IMG/VR virus record: IMGVR_UViG_3300010401_000004
Coordinates: 1 to 64,000 of that record
Length of the DNA: 64,000 nucleotides
Origin: a virus
Reading direction: 5' to 3' (one strand)
Shown here: positions 31,079-47,911 of the stretch, one piece after another
Layout of the letters: the number at the start of each line of letters is the position of its first letter
Numbering within the stretch: position 1 is the stretch's first letter
Position numbers and translations under genes: made by a program
The notes under the pieces: generated by a model
The model's input: only the letters and a program-made list of their open reading frames with translations
Database searches by the model: none
What the model was told of the DNA's origin: nothing

Positions 31079-31372
31079 ATGAACTACGACGAAGATTATC
31101 CACAAGATGGCGAGTGCGGTAAAGATAAATACGACGAGTCCGCGCACCTGATAGGCGAAGAGGTTTTCATCAAGGGGCTCGGTTACATCGTTTGGGACGA
31201 AGCCAACGAACAGGCCGCAAGAGGGTTGGCAGAAGAGATTGAACGGATTAGTCCTGAGCGGCGTGTTGAGGCTCGTGGTGGCGCTGGTCGTATTGCGTCA
31301 CTTGGCGAGCCGTTGCATCAAGCGGGAGATGATCCAACCAAGTGTAAATGGTGCGGCACTGCGTTGAGCTAG
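31079..31372 (+). CDS. acidic early protein with C-terminal Cys
   Basis: A 97-residue acidic protein (MNYDEDYPQDGECGKDKYDE...) ending in KCKWCGTALS, a single C-x2-C knuckle. The ATG downstream of the promoter with AGGAGAG is chosen; a longer in-frame reading would begin upstream of the promoter. The function is unknown. Confidence 0.68.
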   Translation: MNYDEDYPQDGECGKDKYDESAHLIGEEVFIKGLGYIVWDEANEQAARGLAEEIERISPERRVEARGGAGRIASLGEPLHQAGDDPTKCKWCGTALS

Positions 31373-32948: not shown

Positions 32949-32976
32949 TGTACTACGACAACGGGTGGGAAGAATC

Positions 32977-33138
32977 ATGAAAGATGAGACTTTAATCCTT
33001 GACTTCGATAGCGGGGAAATCAAGCGCAAGCTCATGAGTAAGAGGGATACGCGCCAAAGGAAAGGCTTAACGCGCCCGTGGCACAATAACTGCTACGCGC
33101 GCGAGGCCAATTTGAAATTTCATGTTAAACACATCTAA
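32977..33138 (+). CDS. 53-residue basic protein
   Basis: MKDETLILDFDSGEIKRKLM then a basic region (SKRDTRQRKGLTRPWHNNCY). It is the last plus-strand gene before the iteron-like array. Purine-rich GGTGGGAAG precedes it. The function is unknown; a 10-codon ORF lies just upstream and is not called. Confidence 0.62.
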   Translation: MKDETLILDFDSGEIKRKLMSKRDTRQRKGLTRPWHNNCYAREANLKFHVKHI

Positions 33139-33164
33139 CTCTCTCTCTATAAAGAAGTTAAGTG

Positions 33165-33257
33165 TTAGACAGTGGCACGACAACGCTTGGACAATCGCGG
33201 ACAGTGTTTAACACGCCTGTCCAAAGGTGTCCAACGGGTTGTCTAACGCTTGTCTAG
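33165..33257. repeat. symmetric iteron-like array, candidate replication origin
   Basis: Seven copies of TGTCYAA or close variants lie in 93 bp. Three are inverted (TTAGACA 33165, TTGGACA 33187, CGGACA 33198) and four direct (TGTCCAA 33218, TGTCCAA 33228, TGTCTAA 33240, TGTCTAG 33251). A perfect palindrome GTGTTTAACAC (33204-33214) sits in the centre. Spacings are close to 11 bp or multiples, one helical turn, so a protein would bind one face. The array lies in the convergent gap beside a RepA-like ATPase gene. An origin is the favoured reading; an operator array is the alternative. Confidence 0.7.
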
Positions 33258-33268
33258 GGGTTAAGGCT

Positions 33269-34183
33269 TTAGGTGTCAGCAGTTACGTGGAAATCATCTA
33301 CTACTTTCAAACCGTGACGGTGAGTTCTTTCGTATAGGCCGGGAGAAATGGCGTCTAAAACTTTATTTTTCAGGCACTCAGTGATGACTCTATCACCTGT
33401 TTTGTCACTGACTCCAAAAGCTGAGGCCCACCCTAAAATCTCAGTTCGCATGATTGATGAACCGGCAGCAAGGGACTCAATTTTTAGCTTAATCGCATCA
33501 CGAGGCTTGGCACTATCGAGCGGGACAAGGACGCCTTGCGCGCCGAATACGTAGTGGAAGGCTTCTGCGGCGGCATTGCGAGGCGAGATGTTAACAGCAA
33601 TGTTTCCTGTGCCCTCATCAAGTTGCACGGTGATGATCGTATCCGAGTATGCGCCCCATGCGACCGAGCCTAAGATTAGCTCTCTTGAGTGCTTGAAACT
33701 CTCATCAGTTTTCATTTTGGGCGAGTGAGCGATTCCGAGAATGGTAATGTGACGCGTGGAGCACAAAGTTGCGCTTCGTTTTAGCAGCCCAGCGACTGGG
33801 GCGTAGCTGTTGCCCTTATCACCCGCCAGTGTTTGAAATCCCTCAACCACGAAGAAAACAGAATCAGAATGAATCTTGAGTGAGGCGTCTATTACCGCGT
33901 TAATTGTAATTACACCTTGTAATTCCTCTTGACAGATAACCCGCGTGATCGCACTGCACAGTCCCAACCGTTCTAGCGTTCGATTCACCGATGACCGCGA
34001 GCGATCCAAACTTACATACGAATATGGAACCGGAAAAGATTTATGCCCAAACACATCTCGCCCTTCTTGCCACGCTGCGAGGGTTTGGAAAACAAGGGTT
34101 GTCTTGCCGGAACCAGACGAGCCGCCAAGTAAATGAACCTCGTTCGCCGGGAGGATTCCGTCAACCAAGAATTCAGGGGTCAT
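33269..34183 (-). CDS. RepA-like RecA-fold ATPase/helicase
   Basis: A 304-residue protein with Walker A GGSSGSGKTT (residues 20-29), YVSLDRSRSS, a hydrophobic strand with Glu in the Walker B position (VFFVVEGFQ) and ILGIAHSPKMKTDESF in the H2/H3 position of RepA/AAA_25 hexameric helicases. The C-terminal 90 residues look like a winged helix (SSIMRTEILGWASAFGVSDK). Family members unwind DNA or load at origins. It ends next to the iteron-like array. It is the only candidate replicative helicase in the window; a repair or RecA-like role cannot be excluded. Confidence 0.8.
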   Translation of the reverse strand: MTPEFLVDGILPANEVHLLGGSSGSGKTTLVFQTLAAWQEGRDVFGHKSFPVPYSYVSLDRSRSSVNRTLERLGLCSAITRVICQEELQGVITINAVIDASLKIHSDSVFFVVEGFQTLAGDKGNSYAPVAGLLKRSATLCSTRHITILGIAHSPKMKTDESFKHSRELILGSVAWGAYSDTIITVQLDEGTGNIAVNISPRNAAAEAFHYVFGAQGVLVPLDSAKPRDAIKLKIESLAAGSSIMRTEILGWASAFGVSDKTGDRVITECLKNKVLDAISPGLYERTHRHGLKVVDDFHVTADT

Positions 34184-34359
34184 TTTGATTCTGCGATGGC
34201 AAGTAGCGCGTGAATCTCAGCTATCTTAAGTAGATAAGATAACTCTTTTTCTTTAGACAGCGCATCGAGTGCGTCCATTTCATCGAACACGTCAACCGCG
34301 TTACATAAAGTAAAATCAGATTTTTCGTAGTGAGACTTAGGCGGCTTTTCTTTTTCCAT
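34180..34359 (-). CDS. small acidic helical protein
   Basis: A 59-residue protein (MEKEKPPKSHYEKSDFTLCN...) overlapping the HTH gene upstream and the ATPase gene downstream (ATGA). It may help the ATPase or regulator by position; no domain is seen. A TTG start eight codons earlier is possible. Confidence 0.64.
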   Translation of the reverse strand: MEKEKPPKSHYEKSDFTLCNAVDVFDEMDALDALSKEKELSYLLKIAEIHALLAIAESK

Positions 34360-34522
34360 TTTTGTTTCGCTTGTACCGGTCAATACTGGATTGGCGAATC
34401 GCCAAAGATGTACCCACCTTGACCGCGTTCAGTTCCCCGGCAATAACCAACTGACGAATTCGGCCTTGAGTAAGGTTGAGCAACCTTGCGGCTTCGCTTG
34501 TGGTCAAATATCCAGCAATCAT
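34337..34522 (-). CDS. excisionase/MerR-like helix-turn-helix protein
   Basis: A 61-residue protein: YLTTSEAARLLNLTQGRIRQ, LVIAGELNAVKVGTS, RQSSIDRYKRNKNGK, a textbook HTH_17 with the wing and basic tail. The start at the second Met is chosen because a TAGTAT -10-like box covers the first; no Shine-Dalgarno sequence precedes either. It is divergent from the next plus-strand operon and probably binds the GGCGTTAA sites between them. Confidence 0.8.
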   Translation of the reverse strand: MIAGYLTTSEAARLLNLTQGRIRQLVIAGELNAVKVGTSLAIRQSSIDRYKRNKNGKRKAA

Positions 34523-34543
34523 GGCCGAAAGCATACTATCAGT

Positions 34544-34586
34544 GGCGTTAATCCGTCAAGCCAAAAATAATTAACGCTGGCGTTAA
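34544..34586. promoter_or_regulatory. putative operator: GGCGTTAA half-site and TTAACGC/GCGTTAA palindrome
   Basis: A palindrome with 7-bp arms and 2-bp centre (34571-34586) lies just before the -35 of the rightward promoter, and a further GGCGTTAA half-site (34544-34551) lies over the leftward start region. The HTH gene is adjacent, so autoregulation plus control of the rightward operon is a natural reading. Confidence 0.6.
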
Positions 34587-43534: not shown

Positions 43535-43786
43535 ATGATTGATCCAAAAGAACTCGCAACTAACGCGCTGACAGGGCATTGGCCTCCGCATTATGGAGTG
43601 ACGAATAATACCGAGAGGATCGAGTTGCTGGCGCGGGAGTTGGAGAAGTTAGCTGACGAAGCGGTTGACGCCGATGCGCTAACAGAACGCGCCGATGATG
43701 CCGAGGAGAATTTAGCCGAAGCCGACGACGAACTAAAAGAGCGCAAAACCTGCACGACCTGCGATCTATGCGAGGAGCACAAATGA
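43535..43786 (+). CDS. coiled-coil protein with C-terminal Cys knuckle
   Basis: An 83-residue protein (MIDPKELATNALTGHWPPHY...) whose middle is an acidic coiled coil (IELLARELEKLADEAVDADA...) and whose end is TCTTCDLCEEHK. AAGGG lies 6 nt before this ATG. It overlaps the sliding-clamp gene by ATGA. Confidence 0.68.
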   Translation: MIDPKELATNALTGHWPPHYGVTNNTERIELLARELEKLADEAVDADALTERADDAEENLAEADDELKERKTCTTCDLCEEHK

Positions 43787-44868
43787 GCCTCACCATTCCC
43801 GCTAAAGACCTGTCCGCTGCGTTGTCTCTTGTTCTATCCGCCACGGAGCGTAAAGGGACGATTCCGATACTGAGCTATGTACTAGTTGAGGGAAGTAAGG
43901 GTGTAGTCAAGCTCACCGCTACGGACATTGACTCTACCTTGCAAACCGAACTGACGGCAGAATGTGACGACTTCGCATGGTGCGTGCCAGGGGCGAAGTT
44001 AGCGGCGCTCGTTCAACTTATCTCTGGGGACATCAACCTAATCGAATCCAAGGGCCGCATCCTCGCCAAATCGGGCCACACTGAGCACCGCTTACCCTTC
44101 CAGCCACGTGAAGCGTTCCCGGCGATAGAGAGCGCCCCGAATCGATTAGGAAGCCTTAGCGGGCCTCTATTCGCGCAATTACTCCTTACAGCTTTGATAG
44201 CCACAGAGACAAACCCCGACGGCCCCGGCTGGTGGCTGAATCTTGAACTAATCGCAAAGGATGGGAAGTTGACCGTTACCGGATGCTCGAATGCGAGGGT
44301 GTCGAGTGTGGCGGTGGATTTCTCCGGGGAATTCGAGGCGAACATTCCGTTGAGAGCATCACGGATACTCGCTACGTTCGCTGAGACGGCAGAGTCAGTA
44401 GAGATCGCGTGTTCTAATAATCTGTTAAGTCTCTATTCCTCCACTGGCGCGGCACATTCTCGGTTGTCTAACTTGAAAATGGCTGAGTGGAGAATTTTAG
44501 TTAGCCCTGCATATGAATATGCCATTGAACTCAATCCTGAGACTGTTTTACCTCCACTGAAACGCGCTCTCTTGGCTTCGGACTCCGGTGCGGTGAGTAT
44601 CAGTCTAAGTAAATCAGAAGCCATCCTAACCGCCACGGACAACGACGCCCAGCGGGAAGGACGAGAGATCGCGTCAATCACTTCTAATCTAAATGGCTCT
44701 ACTTACGATCTCCGTCTTATGGGTGAACAAGTGGTGGATTACTTGAAACTCTGTAAGTCATCCGTAGTCTGGCAGATCAATGCAAACAATTCCGCCATGA
44801 TGTTTCGGTTGAAAGAGAACGCAGACTTTCAGTGGGACTACATTCAGACGACGTTGAGAGTGAGATAA
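43783..44868 (+). CDS. dnaN: DnaN-like DNA polymerase III sliding clamp
   Basis: A 361-residue protein, close to the 366 of E. coli beta clamp, with the same three-domain rhythm. MSLTIPAKDLSAALSLVLSA, then RKGTIPILSYVLVEG and LTATDIDSTLQTE is the conserved N-terminal domain start (T-x-P-I-L-x-x-V, TATD). Later ATDNDAQREGREI echoes the third domain, and the end (TTLRVR) takes the place of the usual P-M-R-L/V tail. The clamp encircles DNA and tethers polymerase and mismatch-repair partners. A phage-borne beta clamp with no polymerase in the window suggests capture of the host replisome. The ATG overlapping the preceding gene is chosen over one five codons earlier. Confidence 0.88.
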   Translation: MSLTIPAKDLSAALSLVLSATERKGTIPILSYVLVEGSKGVVKLTATDIDSTLQTELTAECDDFAWCVPGAKLAALVQLISGDINLIESKGRILAKSGHTEHRLPFQPREAFPAIESAPNRLGSLSGPLFAQLLLTALIATETNPDGPGWWLNLELIAKDGKLTVTGCSNARVSSVAVDFSGEFEANIPLRASRILATFAETAESVEIACSNNLLSLYSSTGAAHSRLSNLKMAEWRILVSPAYEYAIELNPETVLPPLKRALLASDSGAVSISLSKSEAILTATDNDAQREGREIASITSNLNGSTYDLRLMGEQVVDYLKLCKSSVVWQINANNSAMMFRLKENADFQWDYIQTTLRVR

Positions 44869-47553: not shown

Positions 47554-47635
47554 ATTCAGTTTCCTTCTTGCCTCTTCTTAGCGGCTCTTGTGTTTCGTAG
47601 CAAAATAGTTACTGGCTGCCTGACGCACCGCAAAC

Positions 47636-47911
47636 TTAATCCCAATCCTTAATATACCATCGCCCGCCTCGTTGTCTGACATAAGGCGCGACGATACTCA
47701 TAGCTTCCTTCGGAGTCTTGCCTTCTTGGAAACATACTATTCTCAACCACTCAGACCAACTTTCATCGTACTTGGGAATTCTGATGTTGTACTCCTTGAA
47801 GGCTATTATCTTCACTTGCGCAAACCAGACGTGAAAGTCCTTTGGATTAGACTGTCCCAAGCTGATGGTTGGGAAAACAAGCAATAGGAAGATGGCAAGT
47901 TTGAGTTTCAT
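47636..47911 (-). CDS. small secreted protein
   Basis: A 91-residue protein with a signal peptide (MKLKLAIFLLLVFPTISLGQ) and an aromatic, mixed mature part (WFAQVKIIAFKEYNI; YVRQRGGRWYIKDWD). It follows the holin gene directly. The function is unknown; an envelope role is likely. Confidence 0.74.
   Translation of the reverse strand: MKLKLAIFLLLVFPTISLGQSNPKDFHVWFAQVKIIAFKEYNIRIPKYDESWSEWLRIVCFQEGKTPKEAMSIVAPYVRQRGGRWYIKDWD

Follow-up and report, generated by a model that had tools for sequence, protein, structure and literature searches.

The heptamer array at 33165-33257 is very likely the replication origin of the phage. This reading is well supported, as the array is unique in the genome, is kept together with a neighboring ATPase gene, is absent where another initiator sits, and is built on a heptamer that recurs in other initiator genes. 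The window, i.e., the whole stretch of 64,000 nucleotides that was analyzed, is part of an IMG/VR phage record of 70,830 bp. The region from 33096 to 33268 probably represents the origin and, together with the upstream HTH_17-ATPase operon, would form one exchangeable initiation module in which the ATPase may initiate via its winged helix.

The initial annotation described seven TGTCYAA-type heptamers, three inverted and then four direct, beside a perfect palindrome. This arrangement was confirmed: three heptamers point leftward and four rightward, with the 11 bp palindrome GTGTTTAACAC between both sets. Five of the seven heptamers were exact and two were imperfect (TGTCCGC and TGTCTAG). The array consisted of the following elements:

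33165-33171, minus strand: iteron 1, TGTCTAA, exact copy; layout kept in the relative G001
33187-33193, minus strand: iteron 2, TGTCCAA, exact copy
33197-33203, minus strand: iteron 3, degenerate TGTCCGC by sequence; an inverted copy abuts the palindrome in G001 too
33204-33214, no strand: perfect palindrome GTGTTTAACAC, single occurrence in the genome, identical in G001
33218-33224, plus strand: iteron 4, TGTCCAA, exact copy
33228-33234, plus strand: iteron 5, TGTCCAA, exact copy
33240-33246, plus strand: iteron 6, TGTCTAA, exact copy
33251-33257, plus strand: iteron 7, degenerate TGTCTAG by sequence

The start-to-start distances of the heptamers were 22, 10, 21, 10, 12, and 11 bp, which corrects the 22, 11, 20, 10, 12, and 11 bp given initially; with these spacings the proposed helical phase holds roughly. 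The array had also been called symmetric: the palindrome parts the inverted from the direct copies but lies off the exact center. TGTCYAA occurred 23 times in the window versus 13.5 expected, and 5 of the 23 copies were inside 82 bp of the array. Elsewhere in the window the heptamer was present as scattered single copies, near chance level. Clustering was further analyzed by scanning all 7-mers with one two-fold degenerate position across the whole 70.8-kb genome. Five occurrences of one such 7-mer within 93 bp were found at the array and nowhere else in the genome, nor in any of the shuffled genomes (n = 20). Given this unique clustering in the genome and its absence from the 20 shuffles, the array is not a product of chance.

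A terminase search retrieved four structural relatives. The relative G001 (IMGVR_UViG_3300028146_000010) encodes an ATPase with 68-69% identity to that of the window and carries an array of the same layout immediately 3' of the ATPase gene (47673-47774), with inverted TTGGACA copies, the identical GTGTTTAACAC and four direct copies. Beyond the ATPase and the array, the early genes of the window and G001 have almost nothing in common. In both loci the palindrome sits within a common 16-mer, GTGTTAAACACTGTCC, and an AT-rich stretch, AATTTCAAATT and CGCGCGCG follow at the same spacing. Read in the ATPase orientation, the palindrome comes first in both, then the AT-rich stretch, then AATTTCAAATTG and finally CGCGCGCG, and the distances between them differ little from one phage to the other. 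The words common to the two non-coding regions were 16, 12, and 9 to 11 bases long; in random 400-bp pairs (n = 300) the longest common word was usually 8-11. The conserved non-coding region of the window and G001 extends beyond the array. The elements that flank the array in the window were as follows:

33096-33103, no strand: CGCGCGCG element, sole copy in the window's genome; its side relative to the array does not differ between the three loci that carry the module (window, G001 and L033, see below)
33109-33160, no strand: AT-rich candidate unwinding element, distal to the ATPase gene
33109-33119: AATTTGAAATT, inside the AT-rich stretch, collinear in G001
33123-33132: second TGTTAAACAC, inside the AT-rich stretch, collinear in G001
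33259-33265, minus strand: CTTAACC element at the ATPase-proximal edge, within CTTAACCCCT, which is common to L033

Each of the three loci has an AT-rich stretch distal to the ATPase gene. When 40-bp sites were ranked by AT-richness, it was among the top dozen in the window's genome, second in L033 and outside the top dozen in G001. CGCGCGCG was the outermost element of the putative origin region in the window (33096-33103), G001 (47603-47610) and L033 (11100-11109). A 57-aa plus-strand ORF (32965-33138) overlaps two conserved non-coding blocks and probably does not represent a gene, in which case the gap would be nearer to 320 bp. This gap had been regarded as the only convergent one; other convergent junctions are present in the window at about 46.0-46.4 kb and at 52.2 kb. 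The cumulative GC skew has its minimum at ∼31 kb, near the array, but this minimum is confounded by gene direction, which turns there, and is not counted as evidence. DnaA boxes were rejected: the window contains two, as many as chance would give, and the closer one is 2 kb from the array. A single perfect DnaA-box consensus, TTATCCACA, is located at 31096-31104, about 2 kb from the array.

The structural relatives G002 and G004 have the terminase and other structural genes in common with the window, but neither the ATPase nor the array was found in them. Their early regions encode replication-initiation proteins (phrog_270, E 4e-6, and phrog_1408, E 3e-18). The initiator gene of G002 (L021:1495-2235) contains the internal repeat CAACGTCC four times, and that of G004 (L028:10128-11006) contains GGGTGWATCC three times in 30 bp; these internal repeats are probably the origins of the respective phages. 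As G002 and G004 carry initiator genes with internal repeats in their early regions, the ATPase-array unit occupies the replication-initiation slot. At the sequence level, the array is conserved with the ATPase and absent where another initiator fills this slot.

The genes of the module and a further replication gene of the phage were as follows:

33269-34183, minus strand: RepA/DnaB-like AAA_25 ATPase of 304 aa, putative initiator-helicase, with a RecA-fold core and a C-terminal winged helix (about residues 227-286)
34180-34383, minus strand: 67-aa gene between the HTH_17 and ATPase genes, not conserved
34337-34534, minus strand: HTH_17 (excisionase-family) DNA-binding protein, putative autorepressor or co-binder, conserved in G001 and L033
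34546-34586, no strand: TTAACG repeats, a candidate operator at the HTH_17-ATPase operon promoter; CGTTAA at the same place in G001
43768-44868, plus strand: DNA polymerase III beta (sliding clamp) homologue, PF00712

The ATPase matched AAA_25 (PF13481) with 46.5 bits in the window and with 59 and 47.4 bits in its relatives (Pfam curated cut-off 27), and PHROGs matches tie it to primase/helicases. Searches of Pfam, PHROGs and NCBIfam returned no O/DnaD-type domain, and Pfam returned AAA_25 instead of an SF3, D5 or DUF927-type helicase core. An AlphaFold2 model was built from three sequences (mean pLDDT 66), in which the core was usable and some loops were poor. The fold of this model matched DnaB (Z 10.5), RadA (Z 10.3) and RSF1010 RepA (Z 9.8), the last without a RepA match at the sequence level. 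As KaiC aligned about as well as these three, the modeled fold is RecA-like with no single family singled out. Residues 222-304, when modeled alone, gave a winged helix with a pLDDT of about 93 in its core; Foldseek with this part alone returned general winged-helix matches, none at E below 0.001. The predicted protein is an ATPase/helicase core with a C-terminal DNA-binding winged helix. A PDB sequence search with the ATPase gave matches at the level of Walker A, with no link to a proven helicase and no RepA match, and the acidic position of Walker B is Glu (VVEG) instead of Asp in all three ATPase sequences. On account of this Glu and the missing PDB link, helicase activity is assigned from the fold and stays putative. 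In place of the 67-aa gene, G001 has a GIY-YIG-like ORF (judged by eye) and L033 has nothing.

The third locus, L033 (IMGVR_UViG_3300036852_000135), encodes an ATPase of 52-55% identity and has the same order as the window, with an HTH_17 gene, the ATPase gene and an array directly 3' of the latter. In L033 the repeat word is TTTGCAA; a stretch of 110 bp contains six exact copies, and further partial ones are present. CTTAACC is present at both edges of this array, followed by the AT-rich stretch and by CGCGCGCGTAGCAG, a 14-mer common to the window. The architecture of the module is constant while the repeat word changes between window/G001 and L033; a change of word under constant architecture is usual for initiator-origin pairs. 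The array, a putative origin in each case, was directly 3' of the ATPase gene in three of three loci. These loci, of which L033 is distant, were the only carriers of the module found. No relatives of the ATPase were found in GenBank phages, PLSDB plasmids or GTDB genome contigs, and the IMG/VR match L036 was rejected as a member of the module (21% identity, a longer primase-helicase-like protein, no adjacent array in the sequence read).

The change of the repeat bears on which protein binds the array. The recognition helix of the ATPase winged helix reads KTGDR in the window and G001, where the heptamer is TGTCYAA, and RTCDA in L033, where it is TTTGCAA, while that of the HTH_17 protein reads RIRQL in all three loci. 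The change in recognition helix tracks the change in repeat, which hints, from three sequences, that the ATPase and not the HTH_17 protein reads the array. Alternatively, the array may be an origin at which the HTH_17 protein, or else some unrecognized phage or host protein, occupies the iterons, with the ATPase as a separate, recruited helicase. Such a division of labor exists in RSF1010, where the oriV-binding RepC and the helicase RepA are separate products of an operon that also encodes an autoregulated repressor (PMC2200642). In the module, the HTH_17 protein is, next to the ATPase, the second conserved DNA-binding protein. We consider this IncQ-like arrangement unlikely, because the HTH_17 protein has its own candidate operator, TTAACG, which is unlike the heptamer, because its recognition helix is hardly altered between loci with wholly different heptamers, and because no third conserved gene was found in the module in the window, G001 or L033.

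A regulatory role of the array, either as a set of repressor operators or as a bidirectional terminator or insulator between the convergent genes, appears improbable. The array adjoins the 3' ends of both flanking genes, a location that speaks against such a role. Promoter or terminator function was rejected as the scans were at or below chance, with no terminator at the array and one 9-of-12 promoter-like match, within chance. The inverted copies would permit folding of the region into a long hairpin, but the hairpin energies in the window and L033 were explained by the iterons themselves, and that in G001 was somewhat better (7 of 300). The hairpin was rejected as a functional element, the one in the window being no stronger than the iterons alone give. 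A terminator would, moreover, need neither 150 bp of conserved sequence nor tracking with the ATPase. What favors a regulatory role is this capacity for hairpin folding and the occurrence of TGTCYAA triplets in Hsp20, Clp and GroEL promoters of other phage contigs.

The distribution of the heptamer in other phages was surveyed by scanning IMG/VR for three TGTCYAA at 9-13 bp, which resulted in at least 120 loci in a redundant sample. Among the matches listed, the array was inside an O-like, DnaD-like or replisome-organiser gene in 52 of 120, and the TGTCCAA arrays of these initiator genes were always exactly 11-11 bp; 26 further triplets among the matches listed were in other ORFs and 42 were intergenic, some of them in chaperone promoters. 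The TGTCCAAC iteron with its 11-bp period was present inside O-like, DnaD-like and replisome-organiser genes of IMG/VR L055, L064, L075 and others. The survey suggests that several phage initiator families may read one word, TGTCCAAC. In Salmonella phage L, gene 18 contains repeats of TGTCCAACGGA, which have been proposed as the likely origin (PMC8022706). The TGTCTAA triplets of the other phage contigs precede GroEL or occupy the space that separates divergently oriented Hsp20 and Clp-type genes. Intergenic triplets with an 11-12 bp period were located in heat-shock promoters at L045:5450-5479, L088:6534-6563, L145:2904-2933 and L110:4559-4587, and a common regulator of phage chaperone genes is suggested behind them. 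Because it also occurs in promoters of phage heat-shock genes, TGTCYAA alone is not diagnostic of an origin. The heptamer not being specific, the argument for an origin rests on the location and company of the array and not on the word.

It is very improbable that the array serves another DNA transaction, be it as an integrase attachment site with arm sites and the HTH_17 protein as excisionase, as a partition site or as a packaging site. Repeated arm sites are typical of attachment sites and the HTH_17 protein matched the excisionase-family model TIGR01764, but no match to a tyrosine integrase (PF00589) was obtained in any of six records, and no partition genes were seen beside the array. The conserved partner of the array is a helicase-like ATPase, and the replaced modules elsewhere carry replication initiators, which both argue against this group of functions.

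With the array taken as the origin, several ATPase molecules would bind the heptamers via their C-terminal winged helix and form RecA-fold rings that flank the palindrome on its left and right. The ATPase would then melt the AT-rich stretch and load itself as the replicative helicase, or help to load one. Replication would then pass to the primase and polymerase III of the host, which the phage sliding clamp may join. The TTAACG sites (34546-34586) are probably where the HTH_17 protein represses the operon; this protein may also touch the TTAAC-type sites in the origin. That the ATPase is an iteron-binding initiator-helicase has close to an even chance in our estimation. More tentatively, and at slightly less than even chance, a RecA-fold (RepA/DnaB-type) helicase may have acquired an iteron-binding winged helix and may load itself at inverted iterons behind its own gene, with repeat and winged helix changing together, in convergence with the SaPI, P4 and pRN1 initiators. 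The earlier idea of an iteron origin that recruits the host replisome was supported, as the array tracks the ATPase and a profile search of the phage genome gave no match to DnaB_C or to a family-A polymerase. These negative matches agree with reliance on the host replisome, although the phage encodes a sliding-clamp homologue. On these grounds the phage presumably depends on polymerase III of the host, and may supply its own clamp. The clamp homologue is carried by a phage without a recognized polymerase, and a distant homologue is also present in G004.

The module was compared with known systems. In SaPIs, the C-terminal domain of Rep recognizes iterons directly downstream of its own gene, and Cch2 of SCCmec is alike; as in the window, the helicase-like protein carries its DNA-binding domain at the C terminus, and the short-iteron origin, a putative one in the window, lies directly 3' of its gene (PMC7581432). 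The helicases of SaPI Rep and Cch2 are DUF927 or D5-like, whereas the core in the window is a RecA-fold AAA_25; further, the element is a tailed phage and not an island, and no primase was recognized in its module. The pRN1 replicon resembles the module in having a small repressor gene, a replication protein with a C-terminal winged helix (ORF904) and, 3' of the gene for this protein, an essential element some 100 bp long; P4 alpha likewise uses a winged helix to bind the repeats of its origin (PMC4234260). Unlike the ATPase, P4 alpha and ORF904 each combine a primase with a helicase from a different family, which is SF3 in pRN1, and the pRN1 origin is a stem-loop without iterons, whereas the window has iterons and a 304-aa RecA-fold ATPase without a primase domain. 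By analogy, the module would work like the SaPI Rep, P4 alpha and pRN1 systems, but it is not filed with them because of its RecA-fold core and the lack of a recognized primase. Origins of the phage L gene 18, lambda O and DnaD types use practically the same iteron, TGTCCAAC with an 11-bp period (PMC8022706), but their repeats are inside the initiator gene and in one direction, while those of the window are intergenic and inverted around a palindrome; no O/DnaD-type gene was found beside the array. RSF1010 (IncQ) likewise has a RepA-like RecA-fold ATPase, a small autoregulated repressor in the operon and an iteron origin (PMC2200642). It differs in that neither a separate RepC-like iteron binder nor a RepB primase was recognized in the window, where the winged helix is fused to the ATPase. 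Another early phage gene product related to RepA/AAA_25, gp46 of the lactococcal phage F13, unwinds DNA 5'-3' (PMC8965321). The initial annotation knew of no described phage origin with this layout, a view that is narrowed by the repeat origins directly 3' of a helicase gene in SaPIs (PMC7581432) and by the heptamer being a known iteron in phage L (PMC8022706).

The survey showed that TGTCCAA recurs in the origins of phages with unrelated initiators. As a rule, it takes separate initiators and loaders to place DnaB-fold hexameric helicases on DNA. If the proposed mechanism is true, a 304-aa protein combining a DnaB fold with origin binding, and with its origin less than 200 bp from its gene, would provide a very compact model of ring recruitment to duplex DNA. 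The three loci, with their two different iterons, would offer a direct test of specificity by domain swap.
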